From NCBI GenBank assembly GCA_012960105.1, contig DUBV01000056.1, positions 1-64,000 on the forward strand: 64,000 bases of DNA, read 5' to 3'. Below, piece by piece: positions 11,529 to 19,192 of this stretch. The DNA comes from Thiotrichaceae bacterium. GTDB taxonomy: Bacteria > Pseudomonadota > Gammaproteobacteria > Eutrophobiales > Eutrophobiaceae. The position numbers and the translations under genes were made by a program. The notes beneath the pieces are model-generated. The model made no database searches and was not told the origin of the DNA. It saw only the letters and a program-made list of their open reading frames with translations. The stretch's first letter is position 1. Each line of letters begins with the position of its first letter.

Positions 11529-11558
11529 ACCGCCAATAACAATGACGGTTGGTTTTTT
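11529..11558 (+). terminator. Possible second terminator, imperfect hairpin plus T6
   Basis: ACCGCCA (11529-11535) and TGACGGT (11543-11549) pair with one mismatch around a 7-base loop, and T6 follows at 11553-11558. On the plus strand this could stop readthrough from argG. On the minus strand it follows the lysine-rich remnant. Weak because of the mismatch. Confidence 0.3.
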
Positions 11559-11634
11559 ATTGTAACTTTTTCTTTTTAACTAAGTTAATATTCGCAGCTT
11601 TCTTTTTAGCTGTGTTTTTTTTCACAGCTTTCTC
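11557..11634 (-). pseudogene. Lysine-rich protein tail remnant
   Basis: The minus strand encodes a tail reading EKAVKKNTAKKKAA then a short linker and KKKKLQ before a TAA stop at 11557-11559. An in-frame stop lies just upstream, so only about 25-30 codons are open and no start is visible. The composition recalls the Lys/Ala C-terminal tails of bacterial histone H1-like proteins. It could equally be chance coding of an A/T-rich stretch. Confidence 0.2.
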
Positions 11635-11917
11635 GTTAGATGATTTCAACTACAACCTTACCAGTATAAACTCAATTAAACAGTTAGCTGTTGATTACAT
11701 CAAACTCGACGCAAGACAATTTGGCGATATTAACGCCAATAATAATTATAATTACAAATTACTCGAGTCAATAAATGGCATTAACCATTTAGTCGGCGCG
11801 CAAACTATTATTAAATGTATCGACAACCCTGAAATAATTGAACCCTTATTTGAAATTGGAACAGACTATGTACAAGGCTATGCTATTGAAGCACCACAAG
11901 CTTTGAATAACAGCTAA
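11630..11917 (+). pseudogene. EAL-domain C-terminal fragment (c-di-GMP phosphodiesterase remnant)
   Basis: The translated stretch SLDDFNYNLTSINSIKQLAV, then DYIKLD, NHLVGAQTIIKCIDNPEI and DYVQGYAIEAPQAL follows the last third of an EAL domain in order (DDFGTGYSSL, DYIKID, TIAEGVE, QGYxxxxPxPL). The key positions are degraded: G-T-G-Y-S is replaced by N-Y-N-L-T, and the EGVET glutamate motif is replaced by K-C-I-D-N. The EAL motif itself and everything N-terminal are absent. An open frame extends back to 11549 but its first 27 codons are a Phe-rich run that does not look like protein. It is a dead gene end, not a functional enzyme. Confidence 0.65.
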
Positions 11918-11920
11918 ATT

Positions 11921-12526
11921 TTAAGTTCTAAATTTTTTAGCTATCCAGTAATCAGTGCTGGCAAACTTGCCACCACCAATGACGAATAAAGCAAGCAACA
12001 TAATGAAATAGGTTGCCGCAAACTCGATACCGTTATTAAGTATTACGAATGAACCATTTTCTGTTAGCCAACTGTAGTTACCATGTTCTTTTAATATATC
12101 TTTTGCACGATCCAACCGGTCGATCGCGCCAACCGTTCTTTCGGTTGCAAAGAAACCAGCTCCTTCAGCAATAGCTAACCATCCATTTTGTATATGCACA
12201 GTCACTACTGCAATAATCATAGTTATCATCAACGGTATAGATATCCAACGTATACCCAGACCTAAAAGCAATAATATTGCGCCGCCAGCTTCCGTTAACG
12301 AAGCCGACCATGCCATTAGTGTCGGGAAAGGTAATCCAAGACCCCAATCCGGATTTCCAAACCATGCAATCGTGTCTTCCATTGAACCGATTTTCTTTGA
12401 ACCTGCCACCCAAAAGATAGGCACAAGATAGAGTCGTAATAATAAAGGTCCAATAAAACCAATCGCTTCTATAATTTTCTCAAGTAAATCCTGAGTCCAA
12501 TTTAATAAGTTTATTACTGTTGACAT
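11921..12526 (-). CDS. hvfX: DoxX-family membrane protein of the RiPP metallophore operon (HvfX-like)
   Basis: A 201-residue integral membrane protein with four main hydrophobic segments: about residues 20-40, around 75-95 (GGAILLLLGLGIRW), 95-112 and 165-185. It matches the DoxX family. It is the last of four genes running leftward from 14541 and lies 53 bases after the DUF2063 gene. DoxX proteins are regular members of DUF692/DUF2063 RiPP operons, where a role in copper handling or maturation at the membrane is proposed; the exact function is not established. An unusual feature is a polar insertion of about 45 residues before the last helix. Confidence 0.82.
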   Translation of the reverse strand: MSTVINLLNWTQDLLEKIIEAIGFIGPLLLRLYLVPIFWVAGSKKIGSMEDTIAWFGNPDWGLGLPFPTLMAWSASLTEAGGAILLLLGLGIRWISIPLMITMIIAVVTVHIQNGWLAIAEGAGFFATERTVGAIDRLDRAKDILKEHGNYSWLTENGSFVILNNGIEFAATYFIMLLALFVIGGGKFASTDYWIAKKFRT

Positions 12527-12579: not shown

Positions 12580-13374
12580 TTATTCTTTCGTTCCCAATAT
12601 GATGTCTTTGCTTTTAAAATCTTGCATAATTTCAAGACCACCATTAATTACAGCTTCAGGGTTAGGGTGTTGTAGTTGTTCAACTATTGATAATAAGATC
12701 TCTTTCCCTGTTCTAGTATTTTCATTTGAACATTCTTCGAACAACTTGGCGGAAACGGTATTAAGCTCGATAAATCCAACTTCATCTTGTCGATCGCGAT
12801 AGATGACAATATAGGTAGCTTGTTCTGGTAATATTTCAGGAAGATTATCAGGACTTATCATATGCACAGGCCATTGATAAGCGAATGGCATAGCCAAAGA
12901 ACTAAGAACAGGAATCCCTTCCAGTAAGTCACCCTGTCGTTCAATTCCTTCAAATGAAATCTCGCGAGAATCCATTGCAATAGATGTTTCTATCCATTCG
13001 TAATGCGCTAACTCTAATAGAAAAGGATAGTCGGCTGAATCTTCAACGCGTTCATGTTCAAGATAATGTATAAACTCCTGCGGCATTTTTGGAAATAATG
13101 GCGTATGCGATTGATGATTACACACATAATCTCTCATCATCCTATGCCATGCTTCATCTTCAATAATTTTTCTAAGAATAGGAAAACTACTCGCCATAAA
13201 ACCTTCGATATTGTTATAAACCAGTTCTCGATATATTTTAATTCGCCGATCTTCAATGTTTTCGGGCGCGGCATTATTTTCCGGATCGCGCATGTGTTGG
13301 GTAAACACATACTGCACATCCTGAAAATGATTAGCTTTGTTTTTCGTTGATAAGCTCATCTGACGAATGATCAA
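12580..13374 (-). CDS. hvfC: DUF2063 RiPP maturation partner protein (HvfC-like)
   Basis: The N-terminal half has the DUF2063 pattern: RRIKIYRELVYNNIEGF, then SSFPILRKI and LLELAHYEWIE. This domain binds the precursor and works with the MNIO enzyme to modify it. The C-terminal half (about 160-264) is the second HvfC-type domain and includes YQWPVH and YIVIYRDRQDEVGFIELN. The gene overlaps the 3' end of hvfB by 44 bases if the ATG at 13374 is used, or by 29 from the ATG at 13359; neither has a clear Shine-Dalgarno, so translational coupling is likely. Confidence 0.85.
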   Translation of the reverse strand: MIIRQMSLSTKNKANHFQDVQYVFTQHMRDPENNAAPENIEDRRIKIYRELVYNNIEGFMASSFPILRKIIEDEAWHRMMRDYVCNHQSHTPLFPKMPQEFIHYLEHERVEDSADYPFLLELAHYEWIETSIAMDSREISFEGIERQGDLLEGIPVLSSLAMPFAYQWPVHMISPDNLPEILPEQATYIVIYRDRQDEVGFIELNTVSAKLFEECSNENTRTGKEILLSIVEQLQHPNPEAVINGGLEIMQDFKSKDIILGTKE

Positions 13375-14185
13375 ATTGATGTTTTTTTATAATGTCTACT
13401 TCTTTAAGCAAAATATCTAATGGAGGAATATTAAAATCACGTTCAAGTAATGTCGGAAAAACACCGAAATTCTCATAAGCAACATCAAGTAATTTCCACA
13501 CAGGGTCTATAACATCTGCTCCATGGGTATCGACACGCAAATCCTCTTCTTCTACATAGTGACCAGCAATATGCGCATAGGCTATGCGTTCGCTCGGTAA
13601 TGCCTTGAGAAATTTTTCGGCATCATATTTATGATTAATACTATTAACATAGATATTATTAATATCGATATGAAAATAACAATCGGCTTCTTCTAACACT
13701 GCGTTAATAAAATCGATTTCCTCCATCTCTTTACCAATTGCAGCATAGTAAGAAGCATTCTCCATTGCGATACGTTGTCCAAGGATGTCCTGAACACGTT
13801 TGATTCTTTCTACAACGTATTTGATTGCTTCTTCGGTAAAGGGGATCGGCATTAGATCATAGAGATGAGCTGTATCAGCACAATAACTCAAATGCTCGCT
13901 ATAAAGAGTAATTTTATGTTGTTCTAGAAATTTTTTAACTTTTTGTAAAAAAGCTTCGTCTAATGGCGCACTGCCACCAATATTTAATGATAAACCATGA
14001 CAAACGATGGGTATTTGTTCTGAAATTTTTCTAAATTGGTGGCCAAATTTACCACCTACGTCTATCCAGTTTTCAGGCGCGACTTCCATAAAATCGACCT
14101 GATCTGGTAGTGACTCTGCAAGCGAGCCTAGAAAGGCTCGCCGCAGACCTAATCCTGCACCATGTACAGGATAATTTTTAGACAT
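13331..14185 (-). CDS. hvfB: MNIO (DUF692) multinuclear iron oxidase, RiPP maturase (HvfB-like)
   Basis: A 284-residue TIM-barrel enzyme of the DUF692 family. Known members use two or three iron ions to oxidise cysteine residues of a precursor peptide, giving oxazolone/thioamide or thiooxazole groups that bind copper. Candidate metal ligands are in place: H63 (VCHGLSLNIG), H98 (YSEHLSY), E142 (AMENASYY), H172/D174 (HIDINN), H205/H209 (HIAGH), D219/H221 (DTHG) and E249 (LLERD). The gene lies 20 bases after the precursor gene and overlaps hvfC, so the products should be made together. Substrate assignment follows from the neighbouring EGxCG precursor. Confidence 0.9.
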   Translation of the reverse strand: MSKNYPVHGAGLGLRRAFLGSLAESLPDQVDFMEVAPENWIDVGGKFGHQFRKISEQIPIVCHGLSLNIGGSAPLDEAFLQKVKKFLEQHKITLYSEHLSYCADTAHLYDLMPIPFTEEAIKYVVERIKRVQDILGQRIAMENASYYAAIGKEMEEIDFINAVLEEADCYFHIDINNIYVNSINHKYDAEKFLKALPSERIAYAHIAGHYVEEEDLRVDTHGADVIDPVWKLLDVAYENFGVFPTLLERDFNIPPLDILLKEVDIIKKHQFDHSSDELINEKQS

Positions 14186-14205: not shown

Positions 14206-14541
14206 TTATTTATTACCGCCACATTTACCTTCGCCACATTTACCTTCGCCACATTTACCTTCTTTTTTCTTATCGCCACAAGAACCTTCACCTTTCTTAT
14301 CGCCACAAGAACCTTCACCTTTCTTATCGCCACAAGAACCTTCACCTTTCTTATCGCCACAAGAACCTTCACCTTTCTTATCGCCACAAGAACCTTCAGC
14401 GACTTGATAACCGCCGTTAGTTAGTTGGTTGGCAGCAAAAGGGTTATCAGCAGCATTAATAATTGGGCTTGCAGTTAATGAAATAGCAAAAGTAGTACCT
14501 AGAGCTACAGCTAATGGGTTAAGTTTGTTTTTAACTGACAT
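14206..14541 (-). CDS. hvfA: Cysteine-repeat RiPP metallophore precursor (HvfA/bufferin-like)
   Basis: A 111-residue precursor. Residues 1-30 form a Sec signal peptide (basic start, hydrophobic core, cleavage near INA-AD). After a short DNPFAANQL leader-like segment come eight E-G-x-C-G motifs: EGSCG five times (C52, C61, C70, C79, C88, each 9 residues apart) then EGKCG three times (C97, C102, C107). There are no other cysteines. EGKCG is the motif modified by HvfB/HvfC in Haemophilus-type systems to give copper-binding sites. The ATG has AGGAG at 14551-14555, the best ribosome binding site of the operon, as expected for an abundant precursor. Serine in place of lysine in five motifs is the oddity. 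Confidence 0.88.
   Translation of the reverse strand: MSVKNKLNPLAVALGTTFAISLTASPIINAADNPFAANQLTNGGYQVAEGSCGDKKGEGSCGDKKGEGSCGDKKGEGSCGDKKGEGSCGDKKKEGKCGEGKCGEGKCGGNK
14218..14262 (-). repeat. Three perfect 15-bp tandem repeats encoding EGKCG
   Basis: Plus-strand unit GCCACATTTACCTTC repeats exactly three times (14218-14232, 14233-14247, 14248-14262). Each encodes one E-G-K-C-G block near the precursor's C-terminus. Nucleotide identity between units implies recent duplication. Confidence 0.9.
14281..14388 (-). repeat. Four perfect 27-bp tandem repeats encoding GEGSCGDKK
   Basis: A 27-bp unit recurs without a single change at 14281-14307, 14308-14334, 14335-14361 and 14362-14388, with a 10-base partial copy after it. 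Each unit codes for G-E-G-S-C-G-D-K-K. The length is a multiple of three, so gain or loss of units by slippage or recombination would keep the frame and change the number of cysteines. There are no spacers, so this is not a CRISPR array. Confidence 0.92.
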
Positions 14542-17536: not shown

Positions 17537-19192
17537 TCAGGCAGAATGAGCAAGCCGAAGATGAGGTTCAGTTGATTCTTTAACCAAAAATTGAATAAAC
17601 TCTTCAGCAGGAAGAGGCCTGCCCGTAAAGTAGCCTTGAACTTCATTACATCCATTGTCAGCTAGATAATTTAGTTGTTCTATCGTTTCTACACCCTCAG
17701 CGATAACATTAAACCTTAAGCTTTATGCCATGGCGATAATAGCGGAAACAATCGTGGCATCATCTGGGTCACTCATCAAATCTCGGACAAATGATTGATC
17801 AATTTTTAAAGTATCCAATGGAAATTTCTTCAAATAACTCAATGATGAATACCCCGTACCAAAATCATCTATAGATATTTGTATACCCCATTTTTTCAGA
17901 TCATTTAAAATTTCAATACTTTTATCAACATTTTCTACCAATGCACTTTCAGTTATTTCCAATTCGACATATTTCGGTGCTAAATCTGAACAGATAATTT
18001 GATTGAAAATTCGTTTGGCAATATCTCTTTGATTGAATTGTTTGGGTGATAAATTTATTGCCATTCTGATAGATTTATAACCCTGCTGTTGCCACTCTGA
18101 ATTTTGTTTACAAGCCTCTTTAATAACCCAATCAGTGATAGGTCCGACCAATCCCGTCTCTTCTGCTAAAGGAATAAAAAGAGCAGGAGAAATCATTCCC
18201 TCATCAGGATCCATCCAGCGAATCAGTGCTTCAGCACCTATAGGTTCCTTACTATCAACACAAAATTTTGGCTGGTAATGTAAAACAAATTCTTGCTTAT
18301 CTATTGCACGCCTTAATTTCGCTTCCATATCCATTTTTTCAATTAAATGCAAATTCATGTTTGCAGTATAAAAACGATAACAATTACGTCCATTCTCTTT
18401 AGCTTGATACATAGCACTATCTGCATTTACAAATAAATGACTAGCATGTGTGTCATCTATTGGGTAAATAGTAATGCCTATACTGGGAGTAACAAATACA
18501 TCATGTGAAAGAATATCAAATTCCCTTTTCATCAAATCTAATACTTTATCCGCAATTTTCACAACATCATCAGTATTCTTTACATCTTCCATAATGATGG
18601 TAAATTCATCTCCACCAAGCCGCGCGACAGTATCTCCTTCACGTGTACATGCACTTAGTCTTTTTGAAACTTCGACTAGAAGTTGATCTCCGGCATCATG
18701 ACCGAGACTATCATTCACACTTTTAAATCTATCAAGATCGATAACAAATAAAGCAACCAAGGTTTTATTTCTATCAGCGCGAATCAATGCCCTATCCAGA
18801 CGCTCACGAAATAGCAAACGATTAGCAAGTCCGGTCAAACTATCGTAATTAGCTAAATAATTCAGTTGCTGAATATCTCTTTTTCTCTCAATAGAATAAT
18901 CAATTACCCGATTGATTAAATAACCATCGCCTTGTCCTTTAATCAAATAATCCTGAGCACCCATTTGTACTATTTCCAATGCTAAGTCATCATCTTCCTG
19001 GTTACTGAGAACAACAATAGGTATTTCCGAGTTCACATCCTGTATATAAGTGATGATATTAAATCCTTCCGTATCAGGTAAATTTAAGTCGGTAATAACA
19101 ATATCAAAATATTTATCCTCTAGAAGAGCAATACCTTCATTTGCTGTGTATGCGGAGGTGACGAGGTGTTTAGTTGGCTGAGCATCATGCAA
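17537..19192 (-). pseudogene. Response regulator with GGDEF and EAL domains, broken at both ends
   Basis: From the TTG at 19192: receiver domain with phospho-acceptor D35 (ITDLNLPD), diguanylate cyclase domain with GGDEF at 193-197 and an inhibitory RxxD site at 184-187, then EAL domain with EAL at 321. The frame stops at TAA 17723-17725, but the same frame continues as SLRFNVIAEGVETIEQL and QGYFTGRPLP to a TGA at 17537-17539, the normal EAL end. The stop therefore removes the last conserved EAL motifs. At the other end the receiver homology (KIKILFIEDSAADA) extends upstream to about 19255 without a canonical start. An ATG at 19305 would be in frame only if the A6 run matching plus-strand 19281-19286 had one more A. 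Confidence 0.85.

Follow-up and report, generated by a model that had tools for sequence, protein, structure and literature searches.

Can the cysteine of an EGSCG motif serve as a substrate for the MNIO enzymes that modify the EGKCG motifs of captophorins, the copper-binding thiooxazole members of the ribosomally synthesized and post-translationally modified peptides (RiPPs)? The question is raised by a 64,000-nucleotide stretch from a Thiotrichaceae bacterium (GenBank assembly GCA_012960105.1, contig DUBV01000056.1, positions 1 to 64,000; hereafter the window), in which an hvfA-like precursor gene (14206–14541, minus strand, ATG start) encodes a protein of 111 residues with eight cysteines. 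All eight lie inside EGxCG motifs, five in EGSCG (residues 52, 61, 70, 79 and 88, spacing 9) and three in EGKCG (residues 97, 102 and 107, spacing 5), and none lies elsewhere. Read most simply, every one of these cysteines would be modified; we assign a probability of roughly three in four to the view that the gene encodes an HvfA-type captophorin precursor in which the EGSCG and EGKCG sites are all converted.

The two motif blocks are equally distinct in the DNA. The EGSCG block (14266–14397, minus strand) consists of five EGSCG-DKK(G/K) units, in which the linker is DKKG, or DKKK where the block meets its neighbor, and corresponds to 4.9 DNA-identical copies of a 27-bp unit (100% matches). 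The C-terminal EGKCG block (14218–14262, minus strand) comprises three tandem motifs built from 3.1 copies of a 15-bp unit, again with 100% matches. Because both blocks match perfectly at the DNA level, this repeat structure, with its periods of 9 and 5 residues, is not a chance arrangement. The open reading frame, the cysteine count and the DNA repeats thus bear out the preliminary description, which had reported eight EGxCG motifs in two blocks and no other cysteine.

The precursor gene is the first of four consecutive genes on the minus strand, followed by hvfB, hvfC and hvfX. The 284-residue HvfB (13331–14185), an MNIO-type maturase, matches NCBIfam NF003818 (440.3 bits; cut-off 360) and Pfam PF05114 and is a relative of the known structure 3BWW. 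HvfC (12580–13374; start codon uncertain), the RiPP recognition element (RRE)/DUF2063 partner protein, matches NF050145 (284 bits; cut-off 142), PF09836 and PF22106, and HvfX (11921–12526), a DoxX-like membrane protein, matches NF050144 (226.7 bits; cut-off 80) and PF07681. Since it stands at the head of a complete hvfABCX operon, the reading frame encodes an HvfA-like (captophorin/oxazolin-type) precursor; the HvfB-family MNIO neighbor, the HvfC and HvfX partners and the tandem EGKCG motifs place it among HvfA-type captophorins, or Buf_EGKCG precursors, in the broad sense. With all three partners above their NCBIfam cut-offs, the earlier assignment as an HvfA-type precursor with a genuine Ser/Lys split is upheld. 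The precursor itself scores 21.3 bits against the HvfA equivalog NF050188, far under the cut-off of 95, and 19.2 bits against the KCGExKCG_twice domain NF050137, 0.3 bit under the cut-off of 19.5, and would therefore escape automatic annotation. Exact EGSCGDKK arrays elsewhere (locus L035) likewise fall under the NCBIfam cut-off; the curated models under-call Ser-rich precursors.

HvfBC-type enzymes convert the EGKCG cysteine to a 5-thiooxazole with the loss of four hydrogens per site (PMC12668002, PMC13097082, PMC13419390, PMC12538549), and this group is common to oxazolin, fontiphorin and gonophorin (PMC13097082). In FonB, position 3 of the motif, normally Lys, tolerates Ala, Arg and Thr, but not Phe or Glu (PMC12668002). 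On this basis, the leader of the window precursor would be bound by HvfC, probably through a conserved NPF...GY stretch, and HvfB, an iron oxidase, would turn each motif cysteine and the carbonyl of the preceding residue, Ser or Lys, into a 5-thiooxazole, with the loss of four hydrogens per site, in the five isolated EGSCG and the three tandem EGKCG motifs alike. The peptide would then be exported and could buffer Cu(I) in the periplasm. Variation at motif position 3 would be tolerated, and repeat slippage may have added EGSCGDKK units.

The strongest evidence that EGSCG is a substrate comes from operons whose precursor lacks EGKCG. About 85,000 species genomes were scanned for pairs of EG(S-like)CG motifs spaced by nine residues, which gave 72 loci, a few of them chance matches; at 40 of the loci, the DNA retrieved includes a relative of HvfB. 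Separately, HvfB neighbors were taken from 58 relatives and from 369 genomes sampled across the class. EGSCG arrays, including exact EGSCGDKK repeats of the kind that the preliminary description had proposed to search for, were recovered in Halieaceae, Alcanivorax, Lysobacter, Neisseriaceae and Myxococcota as well as in congeners. In three gammaproteobacterial genomes (L183/L213, L211 and L212), a full hvfABCX operon encodes a precursor whose sole motif is EGSCG; the HvfB proteins of these operons are 61%, 66% and 64% identical to that of the window, respectively. By pattern search, EGKCG-encoding sequence is absent from the whole L211 and L212 genomes, and the L213 genome contains one stray match on another contig; the cysteines available to these enzymes therefore lie in EGSCG. 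Their HvfB pocket (R-R, D-F) is that of the window enzyme and of 99 of the 110 EGKCG-associated enzymes. In the window, it corresponds to R15-R16 (14138–14143, minus strand), the equivalents of the substrate-Glu-binding arginines of FonB, and to D250-F251 (13433–13438, minus strand), the equivalents of its catalytic base D249 and pocket residue F250 (PMC12668002). Of the two alternatives proposed earlier, that MNIO enzymes accept EGSCG or that modification is confined to the last three motifs, these EGSCG-only operons favor the first and disfavor the second.

Two further candidates were considered as Ser-only loci and rejected. In L017, whose HvfB is 77% identical to that of the window, the apparent hvfA (2517–2940) has an EGKCG block directly downstream of its EGSCG block, in another frame after an A-run; this apparent frameshift in one assembly may be an error or slippage, and the locus was left unused because its Ser-only reading may be an assembly error. 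In Alysiella (L071), a second precursor with EGKCG pairs adjoins.

Selection on the motif was assessed by comparing adjacent units within diverged arrays. At Ser-Cys-Gly, silent to coding changes stood at 27:11 in HvfB-linked EGSCG arrays and 28:5 in stand-alone Woeseiaceae-type arrays, against an expectation of about 0.3:1 (about 0.34:1 for the HvfB-linked arrays), after removal of the one pair per array that was conditioned by the retrieval pattern. A ratio of 170:30 over all arrays was set aside as biased by that pattern, and the conservative version was relied upon. As judged by these ratios, the diverged arrays of relatives show selection on Ser-Cys-Gly. Taken with the EGSCG-only operons, they lean clearly towards EGSCG being a substrate motif in this enzyme family.

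Several observations weigh against extending this conclusion to the window protein. FonB left a one-repeat EGKCG substrate unmodified, and the E6 residue after its first motif mattered (PMC12668002), whereas the Ser motifs of the window are isolated and are followed by D instead of E. The EGSCG-only operons carry their motifs mostly as doublets or triplets, and so are a better test of Ser at position 3 than of isolation. The Ser units of the window, being identical, give no selection signal of their own. A search of the running text of the MNIO papers found no data on EGSCG modification. Conversely, MmrB/C still modified one cysteine of a two-Cys cassette of MmrA when the other was replaced by Ala (PMC12538549). 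On balance, we infer conversion at every site of the window protein, its isolated EGSCG-DKK units included, as well as its export and copper binding.

How the two motif types are arranged bears on the alternatives. Across 83 class precursors, position 3 is occupied by Lys in 477 motifs, Ser in 35, Asn in 16, Gln in 15 and Arg in 15, with EGSCG motifs in 11 of the 83. The median is seven motifs per precursor, and 29 of the 83 have eight or more, which weakens the earlier suggestion that the eight-motif product could bind more metal than usual. EGSCG repeats are thus not new: the parts of the window precursor are common and its motif number is ordinary. Its standout trait is the layout, common to the family, in which Ser motifs are isolated by DKK and Lys motifs stand in tandem. 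In family precursors, isolated motifs account for 23 of the 24 with Ser, and tandem motifs for 162 of the 194 with Lys (Fisher p about 5e-15; about 1e-8 for the class, with exceptions), although these tests serve as description only because motifs are not independent. Among the exceptions are EGSCG pairs and triplets in L183, L048 and L030; isolated EGKCG motifs are also frequent (41 of the 51 class precursors having isolated motifs). Ser and Lys motifs are likewise mixed in Neisseria-type loci and in those of Alcanivorax and Lysobacter.

The recurrence of this layout in the family and, with exceptions, in the class, together with the mixed loci just named, speaks for a division into two functional tiers, in which all sites would be modified while isolated Ser and tandem Lys sites differ in copper binding. 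As one example, Ser sites could bind as single ligands, more weakly or between molecules, and Lys sites as chelating pairs. The tandem EGSCG and isolated EGKCG motifs listed above speak against such a division, and we regard it as rather unlikely. Still more doubtful would be its extension to a built-in two-tier copper buffer whose capacity lineages tune through slippage gain and loss of Ser units.

Modification might instead be confined to the three tandem EGKCG motifs, leaving the EGSCG block as a spacer or as a metallothionein-like arm of free thiols. The requirement of the nearest characterized enzyme for two adjacent repeats (PMC12668002) favors this possibility, as do the isolated Ser and tandem Lys motifs of the family, the lack of the block in the two closest relatives and a decayed EGSSG unit in the congeneric-type array of L077. 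It has to contend, however, with the EGSCG-only hvfABCX operons, the coding constraint on Ser-Cys-Gly in relatives, the modification of a single-Cys MmrA cassette (PMC12538549), and the retention of Cys in 24 of 25 Ser motifs compared with 190 of 191 Lys motifs (one off-register DGSEG match omitted). We therefore consider it unlikely.

The two relatives nearest by HvfB (L075 and L076; 86% and 84% identity) lack EGSCG, but EGSCGDKK units are mixed with EGKCG pairs in the congeners L080, L081 and L083 and in the related L077; the absence from relatives that had earlier been named as evidence against modification thus applies to the former and fails for the latter. When Ser motifs are mapped as present or absent onto a tree of 121 HvfB sequences, 17 or more changes are required, and well-supported branches force 5 of these; the number is not a rate, because part of the Ser-positive loci had been included deliberately. 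The window block is recent, as its units are DNA-identical. Its Ser codon (TCT) and the Lys codon (AAA) differ at every base, which puts a Ser unit more than one step away from a Lys unit. That the block is an accidental low-complexity expansion, slippage copies of one EGSCGDKK unit with no function of their own, would fit the identical 27-bp units and their absence from the two nearest relatives, but is very unlikely given the retention of the unit in three congeners and Halieaceae, the distance between TCT and AAA, and the coding constraint on diverged arrays.

The window locus resembles HvfA/oxazolin of Haemophilus influenzae (hvfABCX) in gene order, partner families, signal-type N-terminus, confinement of Cys to EGxCG motifs and C-terminal tandem EGKCG. 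The six Cys of Haemophilus HvfA sit in three AEGKCGEGKCG motifs (PMC13419390), whereas five of the eight motifs here are EGSCG with DKKG between them. In the fontiphorin (FonABC) and bulbicupramide (MmrABC) systems, an MNIO and a DUF2063 partner likewise act on EGKCG repeats, and about four hydrogens are lost per Cys; the cores are EGKCG-based, and Ser is not among the position-3 variants named in the text (PMC12668002, PMC12538549). In the Buf_EGKCG/oxazolin family (PMC12452194), a precursor with a signal and EGKCG motifs is accompanied by MNIO, DUF2063 and DoxX genes; the window precursor differs in its 9-residue EGSCG units and single EGKCG triplet. A similar mixed layout occurs in the gonophorin-type Neisseria loci L233 and L228, in which isolated (A/E/H/Q)GSCG-type motifs precede EGKCGEGKCG pairs, although leader and linkers differ and Ser motifs are fewer. 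Because the HvfC proteins of these two Neisseriaceae loci are 94% identical to gonococcal 3DEE, the experimentally studied gonophorin is probably of the mixed Ser/Lys type. The EGSCG-only precursors of L183, L211, L212 and the Myxococcota L018 and L023 likewise adjoin an MNIO gene but lack an EGKCG block; those of L018 and L023 are lipoprotein-like, and their MNIO is about 40% identical, with different pocket residues.

Should EGSCG prove to be modified, defining the captophorin core motif as EGKCG would be too narrow, and precursors would be missed by searches for Lys-Cys repeats, as the 0.3-bit shortfall of the window protein under the domain cut-off illustrates. Natural Ser/Lys mixtures would also be ready substrates for learning what HvfB reads around the Cys and whether isolated and paired thiooxazoles differ in copper binding.

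Ahead of the motif blocks, the window precursor has a hydrophobic N-terminus with INA-A, judged by eye to be a putative Sec signal peptide (residues 1–30, MSVKNKLNPLAVALGTTFAISLTASPIINA; 14452–14541, minus strand) and conserved among same-family precursors. Between it and the EGSCG units lies the stretch NPFAANQLTNGGY, which includes NPFxxxxLxxGGY (residues 33–45; 14407–14445, minus strand). Across 19 precursors, F35, G44 and Y45 are invariant and N33 and P34 nearly so, and the stretch may be the leader element that HvfC recognizes. The predicted structure of the precursor had a pLDDT of only 44 and a pTM of 0.11. Queried by motif pattern, the source genome revealed no second precursor: all five EGSCG matches and three of four EGKCG matches belong to the window gene, the fourth being a stray on contig C83. 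Promoter and terminator scans of the hvf operon gave signals at or below shuffle level, and Rfam gave no match within the window.

EGSCG repeats were also encountered in other settings. Woeseiaceae-type loci (L030, L025, L051, L066 and L074) contain EGSCG-rich stand-alone precursors with no hvfB within the fetched stretch, that of L030 having EGSCG as its only motif; in the L030, L066 and L074 genomes, hvfB is present on another contig. In L014, L018, L019, L023, L047, L050 and L062, Myxococcota-type lipoprotein-like EGSCG-repeat precursors adjoin an MNIO about 40% identical, with RS/RA/RG and DN/DS/DR in the pocket. A Nitrosarchaeum metagenome-assembled contig (L010, 6612–6872) has an open frame with at least five EGSCGSDSG repeats and no HvfB relative nearby, which may be spurious.

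Elsewhere in the window, a response-regulator/GGDEF/EAL gene (17723–19192, minus strand) ends at an in-frame stop beyond which EAL sequence runs on without a change of frame, indicating either an interrupted gene or a sequencing error. Between argG and hvfX lies an isolated C-terminal EAL-domain fragment (11549–11917, plus strand; PF00563 positions 149–236), the upstream part of which overlaps a 30-bp tandem repeat at 11569–11633. The source genome also encodes a second, distant MNIO-like protein (L002, 1321–2214; G000:C5), 23% identical to HvfB over part of its length, whose gene directly follows a tgt-like gene and precedes an open reading frame of 311 residues.
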